Part shown: piece by piece, positions 27,705 through 61,343 of the stretch | Layout: each line of letters opens with the position of its first letter | Numbering within the stretch: position 1 is the stretch's first letter | IMG/VR virus record: IMGVR_UViG_3300023301_000009 | Span: 1-61,770 of that record | Length of the DNA stretch: 61,770 nucleotides | Source: a virus | Reading direction: 5' to 3' (one strand) | Notes under the pieces: generated by a model | The model's database searches: none | What the model was told of the DNA's origin: nothing | The model's input: only the letters and a program-made list of their open reading frames with translations | Translations under genes and position numbers: made by a program

Positions 27705-28097
27705 CTAGTTTTGCTTACGACTGTCGAGTGTGACCACCATGTCACCGTTGTTATATTTCATATCAGGAATCATGGCGTTGTCAATCGAAACTGTCCCGAT
27801 GGCCTCGCGTGTGTCCTCTAAATCTAGCCCTACGCGATGCAAGTCGTGGGCGGTGGCGAGGTACAAAATCATCTCGTTTTCTGTAGCTAGCTCCTCACGC
27901 ACAAGCACCTCAAGGCGCTTTTTCGTTTCGGTTAGACTTTGCTCCCTGCGTTGCAACGCCTCAAACCGTTGGAGCAACTGCGCTTTTAATCGGTTTGTCA
28001 ATAAGTCGAGATCGTCAGCAAGGTTCTTCAACGCAGGTCCAACGCCCGCAATGTTATTCTCTGTTGGTTCCAAACTTATTCTCCCTAGATTCTTCAC
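27705..28097 (-). CDS. Coiled-coil head-module protein
   Basis: A 130-residue protein with a heptad-rich helix through residues 25-80 (LADDLDLLTNRLKAQLLQRF; RREQSLTETKKRLEVLVREE) and a small C-terminal beta part. GTG start overlapping the end of the MuF-helicase gene by 44 bases. Unknown function; could be a minor head or scaffold partner. Confidence 0.6.
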   Translation of the reverse strand: MKNLGRISLEPTENNIAGVGPALKNLADDLDLLTNRLKAQLLQRFEALQRREQSLTETKKRLEVLVREELATENEMILYLATAHDLHRVGLDLEDTREAIGTVSIDNAMIPDMKYNNGDMVVTLDSRKQN

Positions 28098-31000
28098 TCA
28101 TCAACGCGACCGCTGGTGCATGTGTGTTGACAGTAGCTGTAATTATTTCTTCATTCAAGGCTAACTCTTTGGTGATGGCCTTGAGTAGCGACTCGGCCTC
28201 CACCTTAGATCTCTTCGCTTTTATCTCGCTGTACGTTGTGAACTCCTTTCGCTTCTGTGTATCAAGCAGCGTAAGCGGTGACATGCGGTCTTCAACTTTT
28301 ACTACCTCGTCGAGCGCAGACAGTATCATACCTTTTTGTTGCATCAGCTCCAGACGCCGCCGGTCTGTGTTCGAGTCTACATTCGTTAGGACATACGAGT
28401 CCACATCCTTCTTCTGCTTCGTTCGCCAGTTGCGTGCTTCCCGCTGCGCGAATTCCGCAAAGGTCCACGGCGTGTCGAAGTGAATCGTGCCAGTAGATTT
28501 CTTTTGAAGGTTCACGCCCGTCGAACCCGCGCGAGTCACAAGTAGCGTGTCGTACTCTCCTGAGTTAAACTTTTGTTTGGCGGTCGACTTCTCCGCGTCG
28601 CTCATGCCACCATGGTATTCGCCTACAACCAAGCCCTTAGATTCTAAAGCGGCCCTAAGCATGTTCTTTGACCCTATTCGCTCAAGATGAATAATCGGCT
28701 TCTTGTCTTTAAGCTCGTTGTCTAGCAGGCGGACGACCTCCTGTGCTTTGGCATTCGTCTTCCAATCGCCTCCGTGAATATTTTTATGGTGCTGGTTGTT
28801 TCTCCATGATTCAGGGTTGAACGTATTCTTAACTCCTTCAATCCTATCCCGATATTTAATCGCACGCTTCATCTTGCGGGACCGCATCCCTGTCGGCCTA
28901 AACTTGTTCGGGTCTATGTCCGTGTCGTACAACACCTTTTCGAGTTCTGGGAACTCTTGAAAATACGCACGTAGACTCGCTTCATCATCTGTCCTTTGGC
29001 TGCGCAATTTCACCTTCGCCTCCGCGTCCATTTTCAACTGGCGCATCTTGAAGCCGGTAAACTCTCCTTCAATCTGTGCAGCACGCTCCTTCTGCTTAGG
29101 CGTCATGGTTAACTCTCTAAGATACTTCGCTTTCTCTGCATCTGAACGCTTCGTCCCATCGGGGTGATAATCTCTAAATGGGTTATTAAGTCTCTTATCC
29201 AGCGGTGACGCTCGCGTAAACGTGTAGGTATCCATCTCCCGTCGGAGCTGCGCCACCATCGACTCGCCAAACACGTTCGAGTTGAGCGTGATATTATCGT
29301 ACTGCTTCGTGAATTCATCTTTGGGCGGAAACTGGCCGGGGTTCAACCAGTTCGATATATCCCAAAACTCACCCATGTTGTTCTTAGCTGCCGTGCCTGT
29401 AAGGCCGACGCGGTACTTCAACCTTCCACCAACCAGCTTTTGTAAACCCTCCGCTTTAGCAGACCCTCCCGTCGGACTCGCAGACGTCATCTGGTGAATC
29501 TCATCAATAGCCATAAAGTCAAACGTGTCCTTAGCCTGTGCAGCGGACGCCGCCAAATCATCATGTGAGATGATCGTGAACAGCGCACCATCTCTTCTGT
29601 CCTCTGCATAGTTGCGCTCCATTGCCACCACATCGTCTTGGAATCCCTTGACCGTGACTCTCGTTAGGCGTGTCGCAATCTCAGCTTCGATTGTGTCGGC
29701 GTACGCTTCTGGTAATCTACTACGGTCTGGTAGTTTCTCACCATCCTCGCCACGGACAAATGGCACGTTCTCCATAACTACATCTCGCACCTTCTCCCTG
29801 ATATCACGCTCAACATCAACCCTGCTGCTGGCAGACGTATAGAGAACGATCTTACCCTTCTCGTTGAACTGCATGATCTCTTGTACCATTTGGTTCCTAA
29901 GTGCCGCAGGCGTTGATATACACCCCGCGTCAATTTCACCCTTAGCATGCAGGTCGGAGACCGCCCCAATGATAGTTGGGGTCTTACCTAGCCCAGCCCC
30001 AAAGTGGAGGAGCGACTGCTTGGCCTCCTCAATGAATTTGATGCCCGACTGCTGCTCGACGTGCATGGCAATTTTGAACCCACCCGTGGGGTCATCGGTC
30101 TCCGGTTGCCACGCCTCGATATGATCTTGCATCCCCAGCGGTGAGATCGCTATTTCATCTGCCTTGATGCGGCGCAGCAAGTCATTTCTTTTCGCATGCT
30201 TCTTTAGCGGCCAAGTGCTTGTTGCCTGCGGGTCCATCTCGACTATGTACTTACCCTTGTCCTTGAGTATCTTGTATGCGCCAGACTCAGGTGGGAATCC
30301 GTTGGCAAGCATAAACTGCCCTAACTCCTCTTTCGTGGTTGCAGAGTTTGAGTGCATTGGCTTACGCTCTCCACCTATATGATTCTCAAGCGACTGGAGA
30401 AGTGCGGCATTTGTTCCAGCCTGTTGCAACTCCCTCGCATACTCCATGCGAATGTTCGCTACCTCCGTAGCCTTAGTGATTGAGCTGAGTGCAGATTCGC
30501 CTAGTACCGCTGCCTCCAACTTATCCCTATGCTCTCCTGCTTTGTTAACACCCTCCATAATCTGCGGTAGCATCCGCTCTTTAATCTCTTGGAGCGTTCC
30601 GCGCATTCGCACACGGTCGAAACCCTCAACCTGCGCCATAAGCAGATTCGCCGCCCCGTCAATTCCCAGCATCGACGCCGCGTGTCTGTCAAATTGCGCG
30701 TTGATTCCCATCTCGCCTGCAACAGCATTAAGCGACGCAGCTACGTTATCTGGAACTTGGCTGGATGACATCGTGTCTTTAGGAAATGGCCTATTCTCAA
30801 CCAGTTGGTCGAGAATAAGCATGCTCAGCTCCTTTGGTGGATGCCACGGCTCTTGGTAGCACATGCAATGCGGGTGGGGCAGACTCGGATATTCCACAAC
30901 TAGGTACATACCCGATATGTCCACATCGCTTAGGTCTACGTCGAACTCCGCGAGCTTTGCTATAACGCCAGCTCCTGTGCCTGATGCCAGTATCTCACAT

Positions 31001-31821
31001 ACCTCATGTCCGCTGTGCCACGCGTGGCTACTGCTCAACCGCCAGTAGCTAAACGCCACCCCTAACTCTTTGTACAAAGCCAAGTTTGCTTCTCTCGCCG
31101 CGCGGGCCTGTTCAGTCCTGTTGATGCGTTGCAGCGACTTGCCCACGGAGCCGCCGTCAACTCTCGTATGCCCCGGCTTTGGGTCGTGTAACCCCCGGCG
31201 CATGTAGTCCATCGCCTTCGTGGAATCCTCGCCGAGCTTAGACTTGATAACACGGTCGTAGCGCAGCTTCGCCTTCCCCGCTTCTCTTGCTAGCCGATCC
31301 TTAGTTGTAGTCTGCGTTCCGGGGAACGGATTGTTCATCGCATTGTTCGTAGCAGTGGCCGAGAGCTGGGCGAGCTTCGCGTCTGTTTGCTTCGGGATGC
31401 CGAGCTTTGCAAGTACCTCAGACTGTGCCCGCAGGTCTCGTTGGACTGCGAGTGCAATGTTTGACTTCATGGACTCTTGAACCTTCCCCATTGCCCCACG
31501 AATCTGTGTGTTCGCTAGTTGGTCTAACTCTAAGCGTGCCTTGGTTGTAAATTCACCAGACTCGGTGCGCGAGCTTTTATTCTTCTCACGGACCTCTGCT
31601 GAGAACGCTACTGTCCCATCCCTGAAATGCTGTCGTAGTGTGCCCGCCTGTTTATGTGATTGGCGTAACGACGTACCCCTAGCACCACGCATTTCTTCTG
31701 GGCCACGCTGAATCAGCTCTTGGCCAATAGCCGCTTCGTCTACTGTCACTCCACCCACCTTGGCCGCATCAACGGGCGTGCTCGATTCGGGTCGCTCATT
31801 TTCTTCTGGTCTCTCAGCCAA
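28054..31821 (-). CDS. MuF minor head domain fused to SNF2-type helicase
   Basis: A 1255-residue protein between portal and capsid genes. Residues about 215-330 match MuF/SPP1-gp7 minor head proteins (RTEQARAAREANLALYKELG; SHAWHSGHEVCEIL; LPHPHCMCYQEPW). From about residue 600 a superfamily 2 SNF2-like helicase follows: Walker A FGAGLGKT near 605, DEIH near 772, LTGTAAKNN near 808, and a C-terminal RecA lobe with VGEYHGGMSDAEK, LLVTRAGSTGVNLQ and QREARNWRTKQ. The helicase motifs look intact. The start is TTG with GGAG upstream. A head-bound, possibly injected DNA translocase or helicase is inferred; MuF-linked multidomain proteins are known from phage polyvalent proteins. Confidence 0.88.
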   Translation of the reverse strand: MAERPEENERPESSTPVDAAKVGGVTVDEAAIGQELIQRGPEEMRGARGTSLRQSHKQAGTLRQHFRDGTVAFSAEVREKNKSSRTESGEFTTKARLELDQLANTQIRGAMGKVQESMKSNIALAVQRDLRAQSEVLAKLGIPKQTDAKLAQLSATATNNAMNNPFPGTQTTTKDRLAREAGKAKLRYDRVIKSKLGEDSTKAMDYMRRGLHDPKPGHTRVDGGSVGKSLQRINRTEQARAAREANLALYKELGVAFSYWRLSSSHAWHSGHEVCEILASGTGAGVIAKLAEFDVDLSDVDISGMYLVVEYPSLPHPHCMCYQEPWHPPKELSMLILDQLVENRPFPKDTMSSSQVPDNVAASLNAVAGEMGINAQFDRHAASMLGIDGAANLLMAQVEGFDRVRMRGTLQEIKERMLPQIMEGVNKAGEHRDKLEAAVLGESALSSITKATEVANIRMEYARELQQAGTNAALLQSLENHIGGERKPMHSNSATTKEELGQFMLANGFPPESGAYKILKDKGKYIVEMDPQATSTWPLKKHAKRNDLLRRIKADEIAISPLGMQDHIEAWQPETDDPTGGFKIAMHVEQQSGIKFIEEAKQSLLHFGAGLGKTPTIIGAVSDLHAKGEIDAGCISTPAALRNQMVQEIMQFNEKGKIVLYTSASSRVDVERDIREKVRDVVMENVPFVRGEDGEKLPDRSRLPEAYADTIEAEIATRLTRVTVKGFQDDVVAMERNYAEDRRDGALFTIISHDDLAASAAQAKDTFDFMAIDEIHQMTSASPTGGSAKAEGLQKLVGGRLKYRVGLTGTAAKNNMGEFWDISNWLNPGQFPPKDEFTKQYDNITLNSNVFGESMVAQLRREMDTYTFTRASPLDKRLNNPFRDYHPDGTKRSDAEKAKYLRELTMTPKQKERAAQIEGEFTGFKMRQLKMDAEAKVKLRSQRTDDEASLRAYFQEFPELEKVLYDTDIDPNKFRPTGMRSRKMKRAIKYRDRIEGVKNTFNPESWRNNQHHKNIHGGDWKTNAKAQEVVRLLDNELKDKKPIIHLERIGSKNMLRAALESKGLVVGEYHGGMSDAEKSTAKQKFNSGEYDTLLVTRAGSTGVNLQKKSTGTIHFDTPWTFAEFAQREARNWRTKQKKDVDSYVLTNVDSNTDRRRLELMQQKGMILSALDEVVKVEDRMSPLTLLDTQKRKEFTTYSEIKAKRSKVEAESLLKAITKELALNEEIITATVNTHAPAVALMSEESRENKFGTNRE

Positions 31822-50329: not shown

Positions 50330-50518
50330 TTATTTGGTCGTACCTCCGTACTTTGCCTCATCTACTTCTGCGCGGTTCACAGGATACTGTCGCGGAGCTT
50401 TTACCCCAAGCCGCACTTGGCTCCCGCGTAACTCCACGACCATGACCGTTGCTATCTCCTTACCTTGTTCATCCCTGATCACTAGCTCCTCGCCTTCCTT
50501 GCGCGATATCGTAAGCAT
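50330..50518 (-). CDS. csrA: CsrA-like RNA-binding regulator
   Basis: A 62-residue CsrA homologue: MLTISRKEGEELVIRDEQGK, VMVVELRGSQVRLGVKAP, and RQYPVNRAEV, matching CsrA's first strand, GxQVRxGxxAP core and RxEI end. The start ATG at 50518 has GAGGAG and lies directly after the RusA stop; an ATG five codons earlier is less likely. CsrA binds GGA motifs in mRNA leaders to control translation and decay. The repeated GAGGA leaders L1-L6 nearby are possible targets, which is speculative. Confidence 0.9.
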   Translation of the reverse strand: MLTISRKEGEELVIRDEQGKEIATVMVVELRGSQVRLGVKAPRQYPVNRAEVDEAKYGGTTK

Positions 50519-50522
50519 CCCT

Positions 50523-51014
50523 TTACTCCTCAATATTCATGTGAGTGAAACCTAAACTCTGAATCTCAAAAACCGGCAGCACTTCGCTGGGGGATATCCG
50601 AACCATGATTCTTGGTGGCTTGTCTATCTCCGCGTACGCCTTCGCAGTGGTGCCCATCACTATCTGCTTGTCGTCCTCGTAGAACCCCTCGTCTTCCATC
50701 ACGTCCTCAACCGGCTTACGCAGGTTTACGATATCCGGCCTGCTTGCAAACCAGATCATGCCTTTCGGATATTTGTATAGCCCTGTTTTCTTATACTTGA
50801 ACTGCATGTATTTCGGCCTTGGATATATCGCTACGATATCAACCCTAAGTGGTACACTCAATGGCTTCGGGGGCCGATGCGGTCGTATGAGCTTTGCAAA
50901 CTTCTTCTCCCAATCACGCATCACCTTTGGCTTGAATGCCCCACCTTTACCAAATCGTACAGATTGCTTTGCCTTTGGCTTAATCGGCCCAACTACGAAT
51001 TCAATGATATCCAT
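50523..51014 (-). CDS. rusA: RusA-like Holliday junction resolvase
   Basis: A 163-residue RusA homologue: VVGPIKPKAKQSVRFG and strand PLRVDIVAIYPRPK, then SRPDIVNLRKPVEDVMED and FYEDDKQIVM. Conserved acidic residues Asp 94, Asp 104 and Asp 114-115 are present, but the usual second Asp of PDxDN is Val 96 here. RusA cleaves Holliday junctions during phage recombination and replication. It overlaps no gene but is one base from the DpdA-like stop. Confidence 0.85.
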   Translation of the reverse strand: MDIIEFVVGPIKPKAKQSVRFGKGGAFKPKVMRDWEKKFAKLIRPHRPPKPLSVPLRVDIVAIYPRPKYMQFKYKKTGLYKYPKGMIWFASRPDIVNLRKPVEDVMEDEGFYEDDKQIVMGTTAKAYAEIDKPPRIMVRISPSEVLPVFEIQSLGFTHMNIEE

Positions 51015-51015
51015 A

Positions 51016-52563
51016 TCAGTTACCTCGGTCGTACCACGGTCGCTCGGCTAACACTTTTTCTGGCTCATCATCCATTTCAATGACCCCATCTTCGACGTCG
51101 CTATCCTCTAGCGCCTCTCGTTTTTTCTGGTCATCAAAATTCTCATACTCATCTGCGTCATACCTATGGTCCTTACCTGTCTCCGATGGTTTCGTTCCCC
51201 CGCCTTTCCCGTAGCCACCAAATAGCTGGGAAATAATACCATTCCCTTTTGCTTTAATCTCAATCGAATCCTGCGGGTTCAGTATTTCCCGAACTTTTTG
51301 ACAAACATGCACAAACCGGTCTATCTCTTTTGATATATCTGGGTTGACCAGCCCACCCTTAGCCTTCTCCGCTACCAACGCAAACTGCAATCGCTCGTAC
51401 GTCTGCTCGACCACCGCGTTGAGCGCCTTCTCGATACTGAATTTCCCTGCGTGCTCACCCTGTGCCTTTAGCGCAGCTTTCTTAAATGGTATGGAACACG
51501 TCGAGTCCTTTTTGTAGAAGGGACATTTATCTGCGATGTAGCACGTATTGCAATGGTACCCGAACTCGGCCGTCTGGTCCTTCCCTCTTACCTCGGGCCT
51601 TTGGACGGCCTTAATTTCTTTGCGCTCCCCTGCTGCAATCACCGAAGCATCGTTTCGGTGCATCGGGGTTATGACTAGGTTCTGGTACTCAACCCACATT
51701 GACGCGTTGAACTGGTTCACTGCGCCGGAGCTGTCATCCATAAGTGCCGCGTAATCAATACTGTGTTTCTCACACCAGTCTTCATAGTTCGCGCGCACGC
51801 TCTTGTGATCGGGGTCTTTTGTCTTTAGCTCATCACCACTGAATACATACGTCACACCATATTGTGCCCCCATCATCCACGATGTCGAATCAACTGAGTA
51901 GAACGTAAGATTGCGGAACACGTCCTTGTTCGTCATCGCGAACCCGTGAACCTTCCTTCCCGCTTTGTCAGATATCTGTAACATCTCGATGTACTCCGAC
52001 TTCTCCATACCACCTTGTATGCCGATGTACTCATACTTCTCGACCAACTTCGTCCACTCCCTTTTGCGCGTGGTGAGCTGTTCCATTGGGCTGTCATATC
52101 CGTAGTACCCCTCGTAAGACGTGTGGTATACCGGCATGGGAGTTAGTCCCTCCTCCTCCATCAACGCCCGCCACTCCTCAATTTTTTCCACACCTACAAT
52201 GCTGTCAATATCCAGTTCGACGTACACGTCAAAGTAGTGCCCAAACTTTTTAAGCCATGAGATGTATTCTAAAATATACACTTCCGGCTCGACATAACCC
52301 TTTGGCTTCTCCTTCGCTACTGAACTGCCTGCTATATGCTTGCGGTGGAACAGCGACTTGCCGTGAAAACTGAAGTACGTGTGCGCACCAGAATCCAGCA
52401 TCACAAACGCGCCCGCCTCCTTAGCCTTCTCTAAAATCGTGGTCGCCTTCGAGTCGCTCATCTTGCGAAAGTAGAAGTACGAGCACAACAAATTTTCGGC
52501 ACCGACCGACAGTAGCTCGTCCATCGAGCGCTCTTTCTCAGCTCCGGCAAAACAAATTCTCAT
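51016..52563 (-). CDS. dpdA: TGT-superfamily protein resembling DpdA (DNA transglycosylase)
   Basis: A 515-residue protein of the tRNA-guanine transglycosylase barrel superfamily. It has MLDSGAHTYFSF (Asp 57, aligned with the TDSGGFQ motif of TGT), VYVELDID (116-120), IGIQGG (180-185), VHGFAMT (205-211) like the GLAVGE loop, and FYSVDSTSW with Asp 225 at the place of the catalytic nucleophile. A C-terminal HCNTCYIADKCPFY...C cluster (Cys 338, 341, 347, 356) probably binds zinc. With FolE, QueD and QueE nearby, insertion of a preQ0-like base into DNA is the likely role, exchanging guanine. A tRNA substrate cannot be excluded. Confidence 0.85.
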   Translation of the reverse strand: MRICFAGAEKERSMDELLSVGAENLLCSYFYFRKMSDSKATTILEKAKEAGAFVMLDSGAHTYFSFHGKSLFHRKHIAGSSVAKEKPKGYVEPEVYILEYISWLKKFGHYFDVYVELDIDSIVGVEKIEEWRALMEEEGLTPMPVYHTSYEGYYGYDSPMEQLTTRKREWTKLVEKYEYIGIQGGMEKSEYIEMLQISDKAGRKVHGFAMTNKDVFRNLTFYSVDSTSWMMGAQYGVTYVFSGDELKTKDPDHKSVRANYEDWCEKHSIDYAALMDDSSGAVNQFNASMWVEYQNLVITPMHRNDASVIAAGERKEIKAVQRPEVRGKDQTAEFGYHCNTCYIADKCPFYKKDSTCSIPFKKAALKAQGEHAGKFSIEKALNAVVEQTYERLQFALVAEKAKGGLVNPDISKEIDRFVHVCQKVREILNPQDSIEIKAKGNGIISQLFGGYGKGGGTKPSETGKDHRYDADEYENFDDQKKREALEDSDVEDGVIEMDDEPEKVLAERPWYDRGN

Positions 52564-52599
52564 TCCGTGAGTCCTCTTGTGCAGTGTGCGTTAACTTGC

Positions 52600-53598
52600 T
52601 CATTCTATTTCTTGCTTAACACCTTGGGCTTGGGTGTACTCGTGGAATACGCTAGCCATTCGCTGAGCCACCGCAGACTTCTCGTACTTCTCGACACGCT
52701 GTAGTGAATGCGGAGCAAACAGCGCATCCTGTACACATTGTTGAATCTCTTCAATAAGACTTGGGCGGTAGAAAAATTGATCAAGATACTCGTAGTACGG
52801 AGTGCACCCCGGTGCTACCGGATTCGCACCACAAATAACGCCCTCAATTAGCGACACATTTAGTGTGTCAGCCAACCCGCCGGTCACAACTACTTTTGCT
52901 TGGCACAGCAAGTCAGTGAACTCCTTAGCTTTGCAGTATGGCACAACAGCGTACCCGGTCCTGACCAAGTATTTATATACTTCTCCACCAGACGATCGTG
53001 TATCGAGGTCTTGTCCTGTTGAGAATACCACGCGATCCTTAAATGGCCGCAGTGCTTCAGACAAAATCATGGCCTGCTGCTTCTCTGGGGAAAACCTTCC
53101 CGGAACCACGATATACTTCTTCATATATCTAGTGTGATCGGGATAGTCATCCATATCAATGGGGAATCCAGTGACCTTAATAGGTGGCATGTTCTCATAC
53201 GCATCCTGTATCTGCGCTTTATGACTTTCCGTATTCACGGTCATGAAACTCAGCCGAGGCGTCCACTCCGAGAAGTCTATGATGCCACCCGTTGTTGGGG
53301 AATTCATCACCACGTCTATAAACTGTCTTGTTTCAATCCCACCATGGCAATGGGCCGCCGCCGGCTCGTCCCTGATATCCAAAACGTACGGCAGCGCCCA
53401 ATCGTGCTGCCGTTGAAAATACCAAAGGTCACACGGCGGAGCATCTATCACAGCTTGCTTAATCATATTGTATGGCAGTAGCGTAAGGTCGACCTCATGC
53501 ACCTCAATGTTGTTCTCCGCCATCCCCGCTAATACCGCCGCTGAAAACTGCGCAGACCAATCACCTGTACTTTTCTGGCAAACGTAATTCACTTTCAT
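52600..53598 (-). CDS. GT-B glycosyltransferase (GT4-like)
   Basis: A 332-residue transferase with the two Rossmann-like halves of GT-B enzymes: VPGRFSPEKQQAMILSEALR, the nucleotide-binding turn, and DTLNVSLIEGVICGANPVAP which matches the E-x7-E region of GT4 donors. It overlaps the TagF-like gene by 4 bases. Donor and acceptor are unknown; genomic context suggests a sugar added to a phage-modified base. Confidence 0.7.
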   Translation of the reverse strand: MKVNYVCQKSTGDWSAQFSAAVLAGMAENNIEVHEVDLTLLPYNMIKQAVIDAPPCDLWYFQRQHDWALPYVLDIRDEPAAAHCHGGIETRQFIDVVMNSPTTGGIIDFSEWTPRLSFMTVNTESHKAQIQDAYENMPPIKVTGFPIDMDDYPDHTRYMKKYIVVPGRFSPEKQQAMILSEALRPFKDRVVFSTGQDLDTRSSGGEVYKYLVRTGYAVVPYCKAKEFTDLLCQAKVVVTGGLADTLNVSLIEGVICGANPVAPGCTPYYEYLDQFFYRPSLIEEIQQCVQDALFAPHSLQRVEKYEKSAVAQRMASVFHEYTQAQGVKQEIE

Positions 53599-54575
53599 AG
53601 TGTATCCTCAGTAATATAACTAGCAATCCTTTCGCACACCTTACCATCTAACATCGCACCAAATAGCATATCAACCCTTGCAGCTCTTTTCGTGGCGAGC
53701 AAGTCTTTGCCTCCCAGCACTCCGCCCATCATGACCTCCAGCTCATCCATGCTGCTGAACTGATAAAAGCAGTCCCTCCACCGGAATGACAAATCATCTG
53801 GGTCAAAGCTAGTGTCCACCGCAGGGTCACAAAGGTCTGTTCGCTTCCTGTCAAACCACCACCTGAACGAATTGTACGCGAACACAGGCTTTCCTGTCGG
53901 TAAGAACTCAAACAGTGCAGACCCCATATCCCCAATAAGTGCATTTGCTCCATCAAAACTTGCGACCAAGCCCCCCAAATTTTCTGCTGCCATTGTCACG
54001 CCGTGATGCCTAGCAGCTTCGCTGGCAATCTGCTGCTTGTACCCGGTGGCCGTCATCGGGTGAAGCTGGACTACTACCTCCTGTGGAATCATCGGGGCGA
54101 ATCGGCGGAGGAAATCTACAACCCAACCATCCCCTATCCCAAATTCGTGATTCCAAGTGGGAGCAACCACTATTTTTCCAGAACCTTCCACCGGTCCTCT
54201 TACCAGTTCGTCCATTTCCATGTAGCCGACGGGCACACACTTTGACACGTTCCTACCGCGCCTCTTCGCTTCTTCTATTGCAAAATTCGAGGCAACAAAT
54301 TCGGCCACCATTCTCTCATCCTTCTCCGCGTACGTCGTATTCTTGCTCGACCCTACCCCATGATGCACATGGTACCCGCGAATTTTAATGTCCGCAGCTA
54401 TCGTACGCAGGAACAAATGGTTTGCTACAACCACAATGTCTCCATCAGACGGCTCCCCTTGCCACTCTCCGAGCGCAACCATGTCAACGGCCACGCTATG
54501 CTTTGCAAGCTCGCCCTGTAGCCTCAGCAGCGTCCTGCGCTCCGCTTCTCCAGCGTACAACAACCAATAATTCAT
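53595..54575 (-). CDS. TagF/TagB-like CDP-glycerol (or CDP-polyol) transferase
   Basis: A 326-residue GT-B enzyme similar to the glycerophosphotransferase family of teichoic acid synthesis: HHGVGSSKN (residues 71-79), VVAPTWNHE (137-144), VQLHPMTA (169-176) and GDMGSALFEFLPTGKPVFAY (215-234), which correspond to the His, substrate-binding and acidic/Pro motifs of TagF. It would transfer glycerol phosphate or a similar CDP-linked group. A LicC-like NTP transferase three genes upstream could supply the CDP donor. Confidence 0.75.
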   Translation of the reverse strand: MNYWLLYAGEAERRTLLRLQGELAKHSVAVDMVALGEWQGEPSDGDIVVVANHLFLRTIAADIKIRGYHVHHGVGSSKNTTYAEKDERMVAEFVASNFAIEEAKRRGRNVSKCVPVGYMEMDELVRGPVEGSGKIVVAPTWNHEFGIGDGWVVDFLRRFAPMIPQEVVVQLHPMTATGYKQQIASEAARHHGVTMAAENLGGLVASFDGANALIGDMGSALFEFLPTGKPVFAYNSFRWWFDRKRTDLCDPAVDTSFDPDDLSFRWRDCFYQFSSMDELEVMMGGVLGGKDLLATKRAARVDMLFGAMLDGKVCERIASYITEDTL

Positions 54576-55132
54576 GCGCCATCCGTAGGATCATTAGTGA
54601 CATGATCATACCGTTGCGCAGCCGAGTCTTGAACCCCACCTGCAATTCGGCTTGGCAACTTGTTTCGCAGACGCACTGCCAAATCCTCCGGCCCGACCTC
54701 AGTGTCATCTTCCCAAATTGGCTGCGACTGCAAAAATGCCAACCCGTTTCCTTTGCGCATCTTAACCGTCAGCGGCGCTTCAGTCCTAAATACAACATCA
54801 ACTCTGCGGTTACCCGCAAACACCAATGATGCGTCTCTTGCCGCAACATAGTCGTCCGTCTCGAATGTAATCTTTTGCTCACCCCATGACAGGCATTCAT
54901 GAATAAGTGCTGGGGGAAGACTCGTTTCTCTTGCTCCGATATAAATACGGTCGACTTCATACACGCTTGCAAGTGCACGCAGCTCATCTGGCAGGAACCG
55001 CTCACCGCCCGCATCTGAAACTCCAGACGCGACGTTGCCAATATTATCCTGCTCCACATCGAACACGAACAGCGTCAGGTCGCCACGCCCTACTGGCTCT
55101 TTCTCTTCGTCAACAAACGCGCTGTACTTCAT
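54572..55132 (-). CDS. Hypothetical protein in the glycosyltransferase operon
   Basis: A 186-residue protein of unknown function. Beta-rich N-terminus (LTLFVFDVEQDNIGNVASGV) and FETDDYVAARDASLVFAGNR, with an acidic C-terminus. Overlaps both neighbours by ATGA, so it is co-translated with the GT genes and probably acts with them. Confidence 0.6.
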   Translation of the reverse strand: MKYSAFVDEEKEPVGRGDLTLFVFDVEQDNIGNVASGVSDAGGERFLPDELRALASVYEVDRIYIGARETSLPPALIHECLSWGEQKITFETDDYVAARDASLVFAGNRRVDVVFRTEAPLTVKMRKGNGLAFLQSQPIWEDDTEVGPEDLAVRLRNKLPSRIAGGVQDSAAQRYDHVTNDPTDGA

Positions 55133-56097
55133 CGTGCCTCCTTAATAACCATCCGTAGTTTCTTAAATGCTTGCGTGCCATGTCTCACTCTTAGCTCTTC
55201 CAACTCCTTACGCGAAAGTGGTACTGGCCTTGCCTCTACGCGCCAAACCATATCTTTAGTCGCGCGTACAATGAACCGCTTATCGTACAATTCTGGGTAG
55301 GACAACCTATTGGGCATCAAGCAGTGTGCCCCAAGGTACAAGGCTTCGAGCATAGCAATCCCGAAGGTTTCTTGGCGGTTCCACGATACTACAAACTTAG
55401 CGCTCCCGAGCACTTGGTAGTACCCTCCCTTTGAGCCAGCTTCTTCCTTCGTCACGACTACACTATGCCCACGCCTTCTAAGCTCCTCTATCAACCACGG
55501 GCTTTTCTCAGGGTCCAGCCTATGCGGAAATACTACATCGTGTACTTTGTGAGTGACACGGTACTGTTCAAGCTCTTCGAGTTTATACGGAAACGGGAGC
55601 ACGCGAACTTTACTCGCCAGCAGCTTGCGGTTCTGGAGGACGAGCTGCTTGTGGTATTCACTGAACACCACCACACGGTCGATGCGCTTGAACCAACCAT
55701 TTTCTACGTCTTGGCCCCAGACTGACATCCCGCTTCGGTGCAGAAAATCATTGGGGTCGTAAGAACCAGCGTGCAATATGCCAACCGTCTTCACGTCCAG
55801 TGCTGTTGCGTCGAGCATGTAAAAAATCTGCTCAAGTGGAAACCACATATCATGGAACACCAGCACGTCACCGTCTGCAATTGCGCCATCCCGCATCAGC
55901 TTCGCAATCTGTTGAACCTGTGTCGCCTTGTAGTGGTGCGTGGAATACACGTCTAAAAACGAACCTGTTTCTACCTCTTCGCTTAGGGGTGTCCCCCAGA
56001 TAAACTCGTCCTCCGAATACTCCTCCTTAAACCATCGCATCCACTGCGCGGAATACCTGTCCTCAATCGGCTCGATAGGTACATGCCAAATGCTCAT
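55129..56097 (-). CDS. GT-B glycosyltransferase (GT4-like)
   Basis: A 322-residue enzyme: VLVFHDMWFPLEQIFYML and VKTVGILHAGSYDPNDFL in the first half, FPHRLDPEKSPWLIEELRR and SWNRQETFGIAMLEALYLGA with the GT4 E-x7-E in the second half. Donor unknown. It lies in one operon with the TagF-like and nucleotidyltransferase genes. Confidence 0.8.
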   Translation of the reverse strand: MSIWHVPIEPIEDRYSAQWMRWFKEEYSEDEFIWGTPLSEEVETGSFLDVYSTHHYKATQVQQIAKLMRDGAIADGDVLVFHDMWFPLEQIFYMLDATALDVKTVGILHAGSYDPNDFLHRSGMSVWGQDVENGWFKRIDRVVVFSEYHKQLVLQNRKLLASKVRVLPFPYKLEELEQYRVTHKVHDVVFPHRLDPEKSPWLIEELRRRGHSVVVTKEEAGSKGGYYQVLGSAKFVVSWNRQETFGIAMLEALYLGAHCLMPNRLSYPELYDKRFIVRATKDMVWRVEARPVPLSRKELEELRVRHGTQAFKKLRMVIKEAR

Positions 56098-56813
56098 GCC
56101 TCCTCCGATAATTTTAACTCAATAGCTTTAAGGTCGCTGGGGGAATCGAACTCTTTGACACACCAGCCGTCTGCTTGCGCCACCATCGTTTCCGTAGATA
56201 GCAGCTCGTTAATGACATCTTCATGATATGCCATCATGTGACTCGGCACGTTGAACTTAGCCTTATACTTGCTAGCCATGCTCTTGCTTAGGAAATACAC
56301 ACCAACCGCTTCTCCGAGTACCACCGCACCAAGGGGGAGCACTTTGCCAAGCTGCGTAATCCTACCACCGTCCTCCGCGCTAGATACCACGGCCTTTACG
56401 TCCTCATCGAGAACGTGTCGTGGGTGGACGAGCGCGGCAGAACCTCCAGCGACTAACTTCTCCAAATCGGGGCGTGCGTAGAACACAAGGTCGCCGTTCA
56501 CCACAATGGTTTCGTCGCTGTGCATTCCCGCAAGTGCAGCATCAAGTGAATACGCGGTGTTCGTAGTAGCATATTCCATATTGTAACAGATGGTCATGTG
56601 GTGGCGTCTGCTAAGCACTGCCTCATGTGCTGCCTTGATGACCTTCTCATGCTCGAACCCAACAACAACGATTATCTCGTCGACCAAGGGCGAAAACATT
56701 GCAACGGTTTTCTCCATGGGGATTCCATACCCTTTGACCGGGTGTATGACCTTCGCTGCCCCACCCAACCGCCGACCCATACCCGCCGCCAATATCACTA
56801 GTGCCCTGCTCAT
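56094..56813 (-). CDS. LicC-like nucleotidyltransferase
   Basis: A 239-residue sugar- or alcohol-phosphate nucleotidyltransferase: VILAAGMGRRLGG (residues 6-18) with Lys 21, YATTNTAYSLDAAL (81-93) as in choline-phosphate cytidylyltransferases, VVNGDLVF (104-110) with the metal-binding Asp, and a later YHEDVINELLS segment. It would make a CDP- (or other NDP-) activated donor, for example for the TagF-like enzyme. Substrate is not certain. Confidence 0.8.
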   Translation of the reverse strand: MSRALVILAAGMGRRLGGAAKVIHPVKGYGIPMEKTVAMFSPLVDEIIVVVGFEHEKVIKAAHEAVLSRRHHMTICYNMEYATTNTAYSLDAALAGMHSDETIVVNGDLVFYARPDLEKLVAGGSAALVHPRHVLDEDVKAVVSSAEDGGRITQLGKVLPLGAVVLGEAVGVYFLSKSMASKYKAKFNVPSHMMAYHEDVINELLSTETMVAQADGWCVKEFDSPSDLKAIELKLSEEA

Positions 56814-57406
56814 TACGTCTCCTTTGTTATTTCAAAATCAGGGTACTCACCTGAAATTTTCTTGTCTAATATTTGATCTCGAATCGACTCGATGATTCGT
56901 CTGGGAGAAGTATGTGCCCATAAATACGCTGACGTTCCAAGGTTATCGCAGATCCAGTTCACTGTAGCGTACTGCACAAACCCAGTCTCTTCCATTTCCA
57001 CAATCATGTTCTGTGCGTAACCACGTAGCTCCCACTTGAAACGCGTCGTCCAGACCGCAGGCAACACAAGCGTGTAGCTGAAGGGGAACCACACCGGGTT
57101 TGCGAACCAATCGCGTAGATGGACCGCTTCATGCCGAAGCAACCCATATCGCTGAAAGTTTTTACTGAAATACTTAACCCCATCGTCGTGCCCCAAAGGC
57201 AGGTAAATCGTATCACCCAGTGTGGTCACGGTGTTCTCGTAAAACCAGTCCTCGAACTTTGGTGCTACTAAGCCCACAAGGGTCATAAACACGGGTATGG
57301 CCTTATGCCACCACCTACGCCAGTTGCCTTTTTCTCGAATCTCCAGCGAGGGCACGTCGTAACGCATCCGTACTAGGTAATCTGTGACTGCACCTGTGTA
57401 GCCCAT
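56813..57406 (-). CDS. HExxH zincin-like protein
   Basis: A 197-residue protein with LLRHEAVHLRDW (HExxH, residues 92-96) and a downstream WELRGYAQNM that could supply the third zinc ligand (Glu 126). Hydrophobic patches around the site (FMTLVGLVAPKF; FPFSYTLVLPAVW) suggest membrane association. The start has no Shine-Dalgarno site and instead a TTTACAAACACCTGG box 17 bases upstream. Function unknown; a peptidase role is inferred. Confidence 0.6.
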   Translation of the reverse strand: MGYTGAVTDYLVRMRYDVPSLEIREKGNWRRWWHKAIPVFMTLVGLVAPKFEDWFYENTVTTLGDTIYLPLGHDDGVKYFSKNFQRYGLLRHEAVHLRDWFANPVWFPFSYTLVLPAVWTTRFKWELRGYAQNMIVEMEETGFVQYATVNWICDNLGTSAYLWAHTSPRRIIESIRDQILDKKISGEYPDFEITKET

Positions 57407-57439
57407 GATGTTTTCCAGGTGTTTGTAAAGAACTACTGC

Positions 57440-57802
57440 TTACGCTTGGAATATTAAAACGGCACCATTCTCACCATCCTCGTTTACCTCAACTGTCATG
57501 CTTCTCTCGCCGTACGTGACAGTCATCCATCTTGCTATTTCCACTGCCATCATCTCGCAGCTAAAGTATTCCTTGAACTCGCTTGTGACAAACTGTGCAA
57601 GCTGCTCGTCCAACGCATCCTTGAGTGCAAGGTACTCAAGATCCCTGTCATCATGGTGCTGCTCGACCAACAGCTCGACGTGGAACTCGTGGCGATGCCT
57701 ATTGCGTAAGTGCTCATGCTTGCCTGCGGGTGCGTTCGGCCAGTTGTGCATGAACTGAAACCGTGTACGAACCACTGCCATTAGCTTACTGTCCGTAGCC
57801 AT
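57440..57802 (-). CDS. Second QueD/PTPS-like T-fold protein
   Basis: A 120-residue protein with the shape of 6-carboxytetrahydropterin synthase: FQFMHNWPNAPAGKHEHL, NRHRHEFHVELLVE in place of the GHRYxVEV zinc site, ALKDALDEQL, SCEMMAVEIARWM and VEVNEDGENGAVL. The catalytic Cys of QueD is missing and the His pattern is changed, so it may be a divergent or regulatory paralogue of the true QueD at 60593..61051, possibly acting on a pterin or deazaguanine intermediate. Confidence 0.6.
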   Translation of the reverse strand: MATDSKLMAVVRTRFQFMHNWPNAPAGKHEHLRNRHRHEFHVELLVEQHHDDRDLEYLALKDALDEQLAQFVTSEFKEYFSCEMMAVEIARWMTVTYGERSMTVEVNEDGENGAVLIFQA

Positions 57803-58328
57803 CTAAAACCTCCTTGTACTGTTTGCCCCTCACAGTGCGTAATACATCAAAAAATTCGCTACCCAATTCTTCTACAAGCTGGTCGAGTACATCATTGCCA
57901 TCTGCGTAATCAACCCACGCGAAGCGCATGTCAATCTCTTTATCAAGGATCATCCCTAATGACACACCCACCACGCGTATTGCAATAGCAAGCTCTTCAG
58001 AGTCTACATAGGGGAATACAAACTCGTAGTGCTTGGCCTGTGGCCACAGCGCAATGGCAGTAAGCGGGTATGTTACTAGCTCTACTCGCGTGACAATGTC
58101 CCCCATCAGTAAGGCGTCTGGATTGATCTTCAAAAGCAGGTCAGCCACCAAAGCTACATCAAGTTGCTGGGCGAAGATCGGTGCTACCTGCTCTTGTGCA
58201 GGTGTTAACTTAGTTGCTATCAGCTTGACCGTGCCCGGCGTCTTCAATTCCCTCATCACCGTACCCACTGCTATTGGCGATGCGTCGAATGCAACGAGTT
58301 TTAAGTGTCTTTCTGTTTCTGCAACCAT
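57786..58328 (-). CDS. Hypothetical protein in the deazaguanine operon
   Basis: A 180-residue protein of unknown function, mixed alpha/beta, with several hydrophobic strands (HYEFVFPYVDSEELAIAIRV) and an acidic middle. GGAGG before the ATG; overlaps the QueD-like gene by 17 bases. Probably acts in the same pathway. Confidence 0.6.
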   Translation of the reverse strand: MVAETERHLKLVAFDASPIAVGTVMRELKTPGTVKLIATKLTPAQEQVAPIFAQQLDVALVADLLLKINPDALLMGDIVTRVELVTYPLTAIALWPQAKHYEFVFPYVDSEELAIAIRVVGVSLGMILDKEIDMRFAWVDYADGNDVLDQLVEELGSEFFDVLRTVRGKQYKEVLDGYGQ

Positions 58329-58366
58329 TTGCTGCCTCCACGGTCTTGAGTCTAGGTCTGTTTCAC

Positions 58367-58612
58367 TTATTTGATAGCCAGCGAGTATATACGCGTAGCG
58401 CCATCGGCTGCTGCTTTTATTCTCGTTCTATACGCACCCAACTCGACGTGCGCGTGTACTTTTCTCGGCCCGCCTGTTGAACTAATCTTAATCCCGATAA
58501 TCAGCTCCTCCCACCCATGGTCCTTTGCCTTTTTCATGTAGGCTTCCAGCTCGGGCACCAGCTCCTCAGTAGTGCATGACACTACTACGTCAATTATCAT
58601 TTCAGGTTTCAT
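58367..58612 (-). CDS. Hypothetical small protein
   Basis: An 81-residue alpha/beta protein (MIIDVVVSCTTEELVPELEA start). ATGA overlaps the FolE stop, so it is tied to folE. No family recognised. Confidence 0.55.
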   Translation of the reverse strand: MKPEMIIDVVVSCTTEELVPELEAYMKKAKDHGWEELIIGIKISSTGGPRKVHAHVELGAYRTRIKAAADGATRIYSLAIK

Positions 58613-59154
58613 GTATGCTTCCTTTGCGCCATCTGCACAAGCTGGAGGAATTCATTTTTGTCTATGTTCCCTCGAATAGCATGAGTCGTTGTGTTTGAAT
58701 GCGGGTCTTCTACGCCTCGAATTGACATGCATAGGTGCTCGGCTGTCATCACCACGCAAACCCCCAGCGGCTCCAGCTCTTTGAACAGGTGGTCTACAAT
58801 TTGTACGGTCAACCTCTCCTGAATCTGTAAGCGATGTGCGAAGTGCCGAACAACCCTTGGTATCTTCGATAGGCCAATCACCTTCTTACCTGGGATATAC
58901 CCGACGTGTGCGGTCCCAATAAATGGCAAAAGGTGGTGCTCACATAAAGAGTTGAACTGAATGTCTGTCAGCAACACCATTTCATCACAGTGCACGCCAT
59001 CCCTATCAGCGGGAAATGTAGTTAACTCAGGTGGTTCGTCATGTCGGACTAGCTCCTTCCACATACGTGCAACCCTAGCTGGGGTCTCCTTCAACCCCTC
59101 CCGCTCAGGATCTTCGCCAAGCTGTTGGAGCAACGTGTAAATTGTGCTCTCCAT
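58609..59154 (-). CDS. folE: GTP cyclohydrolase I
   Basis: A 181-residue type I enzyme: helices GLKETPARVARMWKELV, zinc ligands in CEHHLLPF (Cys 71, His 74) and EHLCMSIRG (Cys 142), HVGYIPGKKVIGLSKIPR, and RRLQIQERLTVQI-type helix. It opens GTP to dihydroneopterin triphosphate, the first step to 7-deazaguanines (and folate). It sits with QueD and QueE in one operon, so the 7-deazaguanine role is likely. Confidence 0.95.
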   Translation of the reverse strand: MESTIYTLLQQLGEDPEREGLKETPARVARMWKELVRHDEPPELTTFPADRDGVHCDEMVLLTDIQFNSLCEHHLLPFIGTAHVGYIPGKKVIGLSKIPRVVRHFAHRLQIQERLTVQIVDHLFKELEPLGVCVVMTAEHLCMSIRGVEDPHSNTTTHAIRGNIDKNEFLQLVQMAQRKHT

Positions 59155-59156
59155 AA

Positions 59157-59603
59157 TTATTCTCCCTTCGATTTTTGGATAATCTGGGCTGTCCCGCTGA
59201 GAATCCGTTGCTCAGCCCGTTGGAAGAACTGCTTCTGCAACTGCCCCAGCTCTCCAATTACGCGTAGCGTACTAATTTGGTCTTGCACGTCTGCGCACAT
59301 GCGGAACACTTCATGTGGTGTGGCCCTGTGGTGTACGTCGACGTCTTCCAAGTTCATGATTGGGAGCACCGCCCCATTCTTATAACGCACCAAAAGTACA
59401 GCAGTTACAATATCAGATGCCGTTGCTTTTTCGGGGTCGACCTCGCCGTGCGGCTCATCGGGCATATCCTCCTGCGTGAACCACTCTCCCGGCGTAGGCT
59501 CTCCCTTCGGCTTTGCTTTACCTTCCGGCTGCGGCTGTTCCTCTTGTGCTGCGTCCGGCTCGTTCGCTGCGTTCCCTTCCCTGTACGGCGTTTCTTCACT
59601 CAT
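59157..59603 (-). CDS. Hypothetical protein with acidic low-complexity N-terminus
   Basis: A 148-residue protein: the first 55 residues are Glu/Pro/Gln-rich and disordered, the rest helical with VHHRATPHEVFRMCADVQDQ. Located in the FolE/QueE operon; function unknown. Confidence 0.6.
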   Translation of the reverse strand: MSEETPYREGNAANEPDAAQEEQPQPEGKAKPKGEPTPGEWFTQEDMPDEPHGEVDPEKATASDIVTAVLLVRYKNGAVLPIMNLEDVDVHHRATPHEVFRMCADVQDQISTLRVIGELGQLQKQFFQRAEQRILSGTAQIIQKSKGE

Positions 59604-59606
59604 ATC

Positions 59607-59918
59607 TTATACCTCAAATTTATATTCAACTTCGGTTAATTGACGGCTTGTGACTTTGCTGATGCTAACTTCGGTGTACATGCGCTCGTGCTTCTCGCTG
59701 AGATAACAGGTCAATTCATGCCACACGGCAAACACAACCTCCGCGCCAAACACGCCTTCCCTGCTGAAATCGTCGGTCCACCACTTCTGCAAAACTTCCT
59801 TGGCTTCTGCTATCCCAAGGATCTCCCCATTCTCAGGAAGTTCTTGACAAACAGCTTCAACCTCAAACGTGGCTACCGGATTAGAAAGCTGAACTAGGAC
59901 AACGACGGAAAATCTCAT
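59607..59918 (-). CDS. Hypothetical protein
   Basis: A 103-residue protein with beta strands VVVLVQLSNPVATFEVEAV and a helical middle with WWTDDF. Position directly after queE; function unknown. Confidence 0.55.
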   Translation of the reverse strand: MRFSVVVLVQLSNPVATFEVEAVCQELPENGEILGIAEAKEVLQKWWTDDFSREGVFGAEVVFAVWHELTCYLSEKHERMYTEVSISKVTSRQLTEVEYKFEV

Positions 59919-59919
59919 C

Positions 59920-60600
59920 TTAGTCTAGCCCCATCACTTTGTGCATCTGGACCGACACGCGCCATGCGGGATTTTTGCAGATGAATTCGTAACAGTCCGT
60001 ATAATGCTGTGCGAGATTTTCATCGTCAACCGGCTGGACGTACTTATGCTCAGCGAGATGTGCGAAATCTGTGGGGTTGAATAGGGGGAATAGCACCTTA
60101 ACCTCATCGTAGTGTTGGTACACCGGCTGGGAAGGAGGCTTGGGTGATACCGTTACCCAGTCAGGCCGACCCTCTTTCGGCATCTTGTTCGTGCCATTGG
60201 TTTCAATGGACGTGAAGAATCCTGCTGCCTTCAAAGCCTGTACCAATTCGGTATCAACTTGCAGCGTTGGCTCGCCCCCTGTCAGGACAATCATCATGCT
60301 TTCTTTGTTCTCCTCCCCAAAATGCGTATTCCATACCCGTGTTGCCTGCTCCGCGATCTCAGCAGAAGTTTTTTTGCCCCCCTGAGCCGTAATATCACGC
60401 ATGGTAAATTTCGTATCACATATAGCAGCGCAACCGCCTTTCTCTTTGGCGTTCATCCCGCGCGTGGCCTCGTAGCCAGACCATATATTACAGCCTGTGA
60501 ACCGGATAAACACCGCAGCTCTACCGGCGTGAACACCTTCGCCCTGAAGGGTTGCAAATAAATCTACGACTATATACCTCTTAGCTTTTTCTTTACTCAT
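59920..60600 (-). CDS. queE: 7-carboxy-7-deazaguanine synthase
   Basis: A 226-residue radical-SAM QueE: DLFATLQGEGVHAGRA, FIRFTGCNIW, then GGCAAICDTKF supplying the remaining cluster cysteines, GGEPTLQVD, SIETNGTNK, TVSPKPP and KYVQPVDDEN. It converts 6-carboxytetrahydropterin to 7-carboxy-7-deazaguanine. The cysteines are spaced C-x19-C-x3-C, not the common C-x3-C-x2-C or C-x14-C-x2-C. I start at the ATG with AAGGA 6 bases upstream, inside the queD stop. Confidence 0.93.
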   Translation of the reverse strand: MSKEKAKRYIVVDLFATLQGEGVHAGRAAVFIRFTGCNIWSGYEATRGMNAKEKGGCAAICDTKFTMRDITAQGGKKTSAEIAEQATRVWNTHFGEENKESMMIVLTGGEPTLQVDTELVQALKAAGFFTSIETNGTNKMPKEGRPDWVTVSPKPPSQPVYQHYDEVKVLFPLFNPTDFAHLAEHKYVQPVDDENLAQHYTDCYEFICKNPAWRVSVQMHKVMGLD

Positions 60601-61051
60601 CATCTGTCCTTGCCAGTTGTTCCGGCGTCCACTCAAAATAATCTGCGTAGCAATTCGGAGTTTCGTGAATCCTCACTCGCGTCACCAGCAGTTGCGTTTG
60701 CTCAAGCTGTAGCTTGGCTACTCCAAATAACTCCTTCGCGATATTCTCCGCAGTGGGGTTGCCACTCAGCATTCGGTAGTGCTTCCACTTGTTCCTCTTG
60801 CACAGCTCTATCAACTCTCGGTCTTCGGTGTTGAGTATCACGCCGTGGTCCCAGCACTCGTCAATCCAACCCCCGATCTTCTCCTTGAGAATACTGAAGT
60901 CTATGACACGCCCAAGGCTGTCCAGCCCACTCATGTCTTGTACAAAAATTTCCGCAGCATACCTGTGCCCGTGCAGATTTTTACACTTGCTCTCGTGGCG
61001 CATCACACGATGAGCAGCATCGAACTCGATTCTCCGCATGATCTCAAACAT
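60593..61051 (-). CDS. queD: 6-carboxy-5,6,7,8-tetrahydropterin synthase
   Basis: A 152-residue QueD: FDAAHRVMRHESKCKNLHGH provides the zinc His (14, 27, 29) and catalytic Cys 23, followed by VIDFSILKEKIGGWID, CWDHGVILNTEDREL, NPTAENIAKELF and VRIHETPNCYADY. It makes 6-carboxytetrahydropterin for QueE. Start ATG 61051 overlaps the SpoVS-like stop by eight bases; the open frame extends further but with no support. Confidence 0.93.
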   Translation of the reverse strand: MFEIMRRIEFDAAHRVMRHESKCKNLHGHRYAAEIFVQDMSGLDSLGRVIDFSILKEKIGGWIDECWDHGVILNTEDRELIELCKRNKWKHYRMLSGNPTAENIAKELFGVAKLQLEQTQLLVTRVRIHETPNCYADYFEWTPEQLARTDDE

Positions 61052-61343
61052 GGATACGCTCCCAGATCTCCTGCTCACTCTCAACGCGAAAGCGGAGGCC
61101 CGTTGTTTCCATACCTTGCACTTGCTCTTGGGTAAACTCAGGAATAAATACTAACTTTATCCCATTGTCTTCTCCCATACGTCGGGCGATAGCACACGCT
61201 TTTGTCATCTGATTTACTGCGCCTGCCCCAATGGCAACAATGGTTACTGTCTTTCCCTCTTGGAAATTCATAACTAGCGCTCCCGCTGCTCCGGGTGCGT
61301 GTGTGTCGCCTGCGACTTTAAGTTCTATGCTTTGTTTTGCCAT
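61044..61343 (-). CDS. SpoVS-like protein
   Basis: A 99-residue protein similar to stage V sporulation protein S (SpoVS/Alba-type fold): ELKVAGDTHAPGAAGALVMN, VAIGAGAVNQMTKACAIARR, KLVFIPEFTQEQVQG and TGLRFRVES. In bacteria SpoVS affects sporulation and development and may bind nucleic acid. Its presence at the head of a queuosine-type operon in a phage is unexplained; it could modulate host physiology or coat DNA. Confidence 0.88.
   Translation of the reverse strand: MAKQSIELKVAGDTHAPGAAGALVMNFQEGKTVTIVAIGAGAVNQMTKACAIARRMGEDNGIKLVFIPEFTQEQVQGMETTGLRFRVESEQEIWERIHV

Follow-up and report, generated by a model that had tools for sequence, protein, structure and literature searches.

The IMG/VR virus record IMGVR_UViG_3300023301_000009 carries an operon which, in the reading that we consider reasonably probable, directs the insertion of 7-deazaguanine into DNA by a route without QueC and then the glycosylation of the inserted base, a chemistry that we infer from the genes. 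The window analysed here is the entire record (61,770 bp, linear ends, no tRNA genes) and its modification genes all lie on the minus strand. They encode FolE, QueD and QueE, a DpdA-type DNA-guanine transglycosylase, a QueD-like protein of the family phrog_17812 and, in the interval from dpdA to folE, two glycosyltransferases (GTs) that form a translationally coupled block with genes for activated sugars or polyols.

The product of FolE, QueD and QueE is established as 7-carboxy-7-deazaguanine (CDG), and in the proposed pathway these three enzymes would convert GTP into CDG. The QueD-like T-fold enzyme, probably DpdL, would then turn CDG into 7-deazaguanine, a base lacking a substituent at position 7, with no QueC step. 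DpdA would exchange guanines of the replicated phage DNA for this base, and one or two GT4-type glycosyltransferases would add a sugar to it, the activated sugar or polyol donor coming partly from a phage nucleotidyltransferase. A TagF-like protein might extend the decoration, and the decorated DNA would be shielded from restriction and other nucleases.

Part of this scheme is of a known kind. Indeed, DpdA puts deazaguanines into phage DNA and so protects it against restriction (PMC6884629), and the presence of DpdA with FolE, QueD and QueE places the window, as judged from sequence, within 7-deazaguanine DNA modification. The initial annotation had already deduced such an insertion, which is supported by the DpdA-type gene sharing an operon with the three others. 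The glycosylation module is apparently undescribed: the literature searched, in which preprints are sparsely covered, contained no report of a glycosylated deazaguanine in phage DNA, which suggests novelty without proving it.

Base-forming genes and transglycosylase

The initial annotation had placed FolE, QueD and QueE in a tight block on one strand, and Pfam, TIGR and PHROG profiles together with the spacing of the frames confirm this. FolE, a GTP cyclohydrolase I (58609..59154), matches PF01227 (E=5.8e-65) and TIGR00063 (197.9 bits for a cut-off of 181.6). QueD, a 6-carboxytetrahydropterin synthase (60593..61051), matches PF01242 (E=1.2e-29) and phrog_2389 (E=1.2e-35); it starts with the ATG at 61051, the longest frame opening at TTG 61084, and its CxxxHGH, DH and E are conserved. 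QueE, a radical SAM 7-carboxy-7-deazaguanine synthase (59920..60603), starts with the ATG at 60603 (the longest frame opens at TTG 60636) and matches phrog_2076 (E=1.4e-32) and TIGR04508, in the latter case with 194 bits, under the cut-off of 240, despite an E-value of 3e-57. Its cluster motif is C-x19-C-x3-C (..GCNIWSGYEATRGMNAKEKGGCAAICDT..), as against the textbook Cx14CxxC or CxxxCxxC; phage QueEs vary in this motif and, among those collected, the Cx19Cx3C spacing is found solely in the window QueE. Signature motifs had been described as intact, a statement that needs a caveat for the cluster motif of QueE.

The transglycosylase (51016..52563), which bears a Cys-rich C-terminal extension, matches phrog_887 (E=9.3e-57) and a protein of phage VpKK5 (Queuovirinae; phmmer E=7.5e-9), and no match to the Pfam TGT family was obtained at E<=1. 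Its family profile gave no meaningful match to PDB sequences, and neither it nor QueE has close relatives in single-protein scans of viral contigs. The structural model is moderate (mean pLDDT 58, about 85-90 in the core, low confidence in the C-terminal half) and its core is predicted to adopt the TGT fold: VIA-align gives a Z of 13.3 with the archaeal TGT 1j2b (rmsd 3.7 over 247 residues), and TGTs account for 50 of the 50 matches listed, whereas Foldseek E-values alone put generic TIM barrels first. D57, H206 and D225 are invariant in the alignment of viral DpdA relatives. D57 and D225 belong to the two active-site Asp motifs of the TGT fold, and H206 aligns with His196 of the phage 9g DpdA, a position at which histidine is absent in DpdA2 (PMC6884629). 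By its sequence, the window protein is a phage DpdA relative, DpdA1-like and not a tRNA TGT, with a predicted action on DNA. Profile search and structure prediction thus bear out the DpdA-like motifs reported in the initial annotation, and a placement among tRNA TGTs was not seen, the match to the phage DpdA family being strong and the 9g histidine kept.

The Cys-rich extension (residues about 337-430; CNTCYIADKCPFYKKDSTC) is common to proteins of Streptomyces phage BRock/LuckySocke and Bacteroides phage BS162P1 and shows a weak match to the terminase small-subunit family phrog_6902. An insertion that resembles an intein or a homing endonuclease apparently splits the DpdA frame of a fecal phage (L005, 11950-14148), exactly where the catalytic DSS motif lies.

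A QueD-like protein in place of QueC

The candidate DpdL (57440..57802) is a protein of 120 aa that matches phrog_17812 (E=4.5e-16). This family is related to QueD in a profile-profile comparison (hhalign probability 92, E=6.5e-7), and its profile gave no meaningful match to PDB sequences. The zinc-binding triad H19/H36/H38 is kept and is invariant in the family, whereas the catalytic Cys found four residues before HxH in 66 of 73 QueDs is a Leu in all 190 QueD-like members with the motif.

QueC (PF06508) gave no match in the whole record, which may be a fragment. It is also absent, above the cut-off, from 10 of 11 phages with phrog_17812, the eleventh having a partial match, and from all the 26 whole viral records in which phrog_17812 occurs; conversely, phrog_17812 is missing from phages in which QueC is complete. 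A weak QueC match in Vibrio phage D479, limited to positions 133-201, was rejected as a true QueC. We extended the comparison to IMG/VR loci, taking for each family the top-scoring 80 or so of several hundred, relatives included, so that the counts are not independent events. Among the 80 loci picked by phrog_17812, DpdA of any subfamily is found in 77 (the three others being contigs of 4-10 kb), a GT in 50 and queC, within the fetched DNA, in none. Among 80 loci picked by QueC, 65 of them with DpdA, phrog_17812 is found in one at most, a marginal match (L240, E=6e-4) that is probably a cross-reaction with QueD.

On this pattern of gene content, the predicted T-fold protein replaces queC in the window operon. 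We tentatively take phrog_17812 to be DpdL, the predicted CDG decarboxylase, and the window protein is probably this enzyme. Cui et al. in 2023 reportedly described dDG and dCDG phages with DpdL, which is said to be predicted as a 7-carboxy-7-deazaguanine decarboxylase. The locus of Cellulophaga phage phiST, with FolE, QueD, QueE, a protein matching the QueD-like family (E=6e-6) and no QueC in the phiST record, fits this identification.

The pathway of the initial annotation ended instead with preQ0, made by a QueC whose gene would lie just to the right or be supplied by the host. No right-hand sequence adjoins the window, since it is the complete record, and QueC from the host is less favoured because phrog_17812, present here, and queC exclude each other across viral loci.

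Glycosyltransferases and their genomic association

The main GT (55129..56097) matches PF13439 (E=6.6e-7) and was modelled with AlphaFold2 (pLDDT 88.6). The model matches MshA (3c4q, Foldseek E=3.3e-12) and aligns with GT4 enzymes at a VIA-align Z of about 21-22, its structural matches including the retaining GT4 enzymes MshA, BshA, sucrose-phosphate synthase and tetrahydrobiopterin glucosyltransferase. It has R193, K198 and the catalytic motif E243-x7-E251, and an EX7E pattern is present in 146 of 147 family members. As modelled, the protein is a GT4-like retaining glycosyltransferase with a GT-B fold. A second, divergent paralogue (52600..53598) is recognised by phmmer from the main GT (E=3.2e-5) and from the GT of phage Phosso (E=7.4e-6), and by an HMM of the GT family (E=5.4e-10).

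A tblastn search with the window GT over a collection of 50,697 phage records retrieved homologues in only 16 records, belonging to five lineages (Acidovorax ACP17, Sinorhizobium Phosso, the PA5oct group, Xanthomonas X1 and Synechococcus BUCT-ZZ01). In each lineage, of which one member was examined, the homologue lies inside a folE/queD/queE/transglycosylase cluster, and each of the 16 records is one of the 26 that contain phrog_17812. As the same collection has 255 records with QueE relatives, the GT marks a subset. When 79 viral loci were picked by the GT alone, phrog_17812 was present in 77 (the other two being contigs of 6-8 kb), DpdA in 74 (the exceptions being short contigs), some dpd or que gene in all 79 and QueC in none; after dereplication at 70% identity, phrog_17812 and DpdA were both found in the 25 loci of at least 15 kb. 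The median gap between the GT and phrog_17812 genes is 276 nt, and no GT was found in the 80 QueC-picked loci. By these associations, the main GT family is tied to the QueC-less deazaguanine branch, and they suggest that the GT transfers a sugar to a base in DNA.

Three other explanations have to be set against QueC-less insertion followed by glycosylation. First, QueC is encoded by many bacteria, and FolE, QueD, QueE and DpdA would equally suit a phage whose DNA contains dPreQ0 or a preQ0 derivative made with the host QueC, the GT block being then unrelated cargo. This would leave unexplained a phrog_17812 gene, of a family that excludes queC, as well as a GT family found in no QueC locus and always beside deazaguanine genes, and GT genes joined to their neighbours by 4-nt overlaps; we regard it as quite improbable. 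Second, plain dDG or dCDG could be the end product of the QueC-less route, with the GTs acting elsewhere, on host surface glycans or on the virion. This is the less improbable of the two, although still unlikely: phrog_17812 occurs without the GT, for instance in phiST and in Vibrio phage D479, and large phages commonly carry sugar genes, but a surface-glycan enzyme is not expected to track DNA-modification genes, and the GT family occurs only beside phrog_17812 or DpdA, in the five isolate lineages as in the 79 uncultivated loci, and at the short distance given above. The association was judged too strict for surface-glycan cargo, which was set aside. Third, vertebrate tRNA contains glycosylated queuosine and 7-deazapurine nucleoside antibiotics exist, and the destination of deazaguanine and its glycosylated form might be tRNA or some small molecule, and not the DNA of the phage. 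Two loci of Streptomyces sp. NEAU-Y11 (L202/L203), possibly a 7-deazapurine natural-product cluster, have phrog_17812, FolE and QueD without DpdA, and L202 speaks for this idea. It is nevertheless very improbable, as the transglycosylase is related to phage DpdAs and is no tRNA TGT, and DpdA accompanies phrog_17812 and the GT in all but short contigs.

Several points weigh against the glycosylated 7-deazaguanine that we favour. The association of genes indicates a shared pathway, not the acceptor; the equation of phrog_17812 with DpdL is tentative and leans on the exclusion of QueC; the Cys spacing of QueE is non-canonical; the host could supply preQ0; and the nucleotidyltransferase and TagF-like protein lack relatives in the other loci compared. 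In addition, it is not obvious how an O- or N-linked sugar could be attached at C7 of a plain 7-deazaguanine. The C7 of that base is a nucleophilic pyrrole carbon, which makes a C-glycoside chemically reasonable, and a glycosyl ester is a possible alternative linkage if the carboxyl is retained. A more elaborate version, in which the second GT would extend a C7-linked sugar on 7-deazaguanine and the TagF-like protein would cap it with a CDP-activated polyol phosphate, giving a teichoic-acid-like coat on the bases with a core system common to many unrelated phage lineages, is improbable.

The GT, phrog_17812, a DpdA-like gene and QueD were also seen together in bacterial contigs of Magnetospirillum (L188, L189, L191 and L193), one of which is 1.4 Mb long; there they may belong to a prophage or to a chromosomal island.

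Proposed sugar donors and further decoration

The sugar- or polyol-phosphate nucleotidyltransferase (56094..56813) matches PF12804 (E=2e-12) and TIGR03992 (E=1.8e-10). The nearest solved sequences are the CTP:inositol-1-phosphate cytidylyltransferases 2xme (E=4.5e-6) and 4mnd, and all the solved sequence relatives at E<=0.01 have this activity. The TagF-like protein (53595..54575), which resembles CDP-glycerol:poly(glycerophosphate) glycerophosphotransferases, matches PF04464 below the cut-off (E=0.0021) and contains APTW, LHP and D-x-GS-x-x-F-E-F motifs that were read in the sequence; it is unique to the window record. Neither protein has close relatives in single-protein scans of viral contigs. 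Together with the second GT, they suggest a longer or phosphorylated decoration in the window phage.

Nucleotide-sugar genes (epimerase, HldE/TagD-like nucleotidyltransferase, UDP-sugar dehydrogenase and two sugar oxidoreductase families) were counted in phrog_17812-picked loci of at least 15 kb, and are present in 20 of 29 loci with the GT against none of 9 without it, a contrast confounded by phage lineage. Where the DpdA is window-like, several clusters have a radical SAM enzyme, in one case with a SPASM domain, next to the GT (L043, 10310-11251; L068, 10302-11285; L104, 8349-9647; L105, 8709-10004; L108, 7005-8324; L114, 8341-9690; L197, 10296-11642). These enzymes possibly perform an extra decoration step, and their presence indicates that the decoration varies.

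Comparison with known systems

The 9g, CAjan and Rosebush types of phage 7-deazaguanine DNA modification combine DpdA with FolE, QueD, QueE and QueC (PMC6884629). The window operon would share with them the first base-forming steps and the DpdA-type post-replicative exchange, its DpdA having the 9g histidine and both active-site Asp motifs, but it differs in lacking QueC or Gat-QueC, in having the QueD-like protein instead and in its added GT and sugar-nucleotide genes. Phage phiST has the same QueC-less FolE-QueD-QueE-phrog_17812 set, but its DpdA is of another subfamily and the 24 kb examined contain no GT.

Sugar-modified cytosine is already known in phage DNA. As in the phages with T-even glucosyl-5-hydroxymethylcytosine or glycosylated 5-hydroxycytosine, a change of base would be followed in the window phage by GT-B glycosylation in DNA; in contrast to them, the base would be a guanine analogue introduced by transglycosylation and not by the polymerase, and the GT is of the GT4-like retaining family. 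MshA, BshA and tetrahydrobiopterin glucosyltransferase have the fold and the EX7E motif in common with the window GT, with about 11-17% identity, but their acceptors are small molecules, not DNA. The queuosine glycosyltransferases QTMAN and QTGAL act on tRNA through a cyclopentenediol handle; compared by function, they resemble what is proposed for the window GT in that a 7-deazaguanine nucleotide within a nucleic acid is glycosylated.

If the proposed pathway is true, a sugar-modified guanine analogue would join the list of phage DNA bases. The travelling of the GT with base-swapping genes in many unrelated phages suggests a widespread DNA disguise, whose gene signature exists in isolated phages: Acidovorax ACP17, Pseudomonas PA5oct and its relatives, Xanthomonas X1, Synechococcus BUCT-ZZ01 and Sinorhizobium Phosso. 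It also suggests what phrog_17812 and a large phage glycosyltransferase family may do, and allows one to predict the phages that should resist cleavage at guanine-containing restriction sites and face glycosylation-dependent Type IV restriction enzymes.

Operon layout and neighbouring genes

Between 61606, the position of an 87-aa ORF, and 50330, adjacent frames are -17 to +38 nt apart, and between 56813 and 52600 the genes are coupled by overlaps of 1-4 nt. The genes between dpdA and folE had not been described in the initial annotation. Besides those discussed above, they encode an 81-aa ORF without significant family (58367..58612; 4-nt overlap with the folE stop), a 180-aa protein without family match and confined to the window record (57786..58328), a 197-aa protein without family match in which a metallopeptidase-like HEAVH (HExxH) motif was recognised by eye (56813..57406) and a 186-aa protein without family match that overlaps its neighbours by 4 nt at each side (54572..55132). 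Two small proteins are encoded between folE and queE, one of 148 aa with no match in profile searches (59157..59603) and one of 103 aa with a weak ydhR mono-oxygenase match below the cut-off (59607..59918; E=0.0011).

Directly downstream of dpdA lie genes for a CsrA-like regulator and a RusA resolvase (50330-50533 and 50523-51014). At the other end, a SpoVS gene (61044-61343) overlaps queD, and at the loci L002, L003, L004 and L005 too SpoVS relatives lie no more than about 10 kb away from DpdA genes. The window encodes a tail sheath protein, a baseplate J protein, a portal and a large terminase, which indicates a contractile-tailed phage (myovirus); its structural region has no nucleotide-level match in the 50,697 phage records. 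Finally, a single frame of 1255 aa (28054-31821) joins a head-morphogenesis-like N-terminus (phrog_1657) to a SNF2-type helicase at the C-terminus (PF00271/PF00176).

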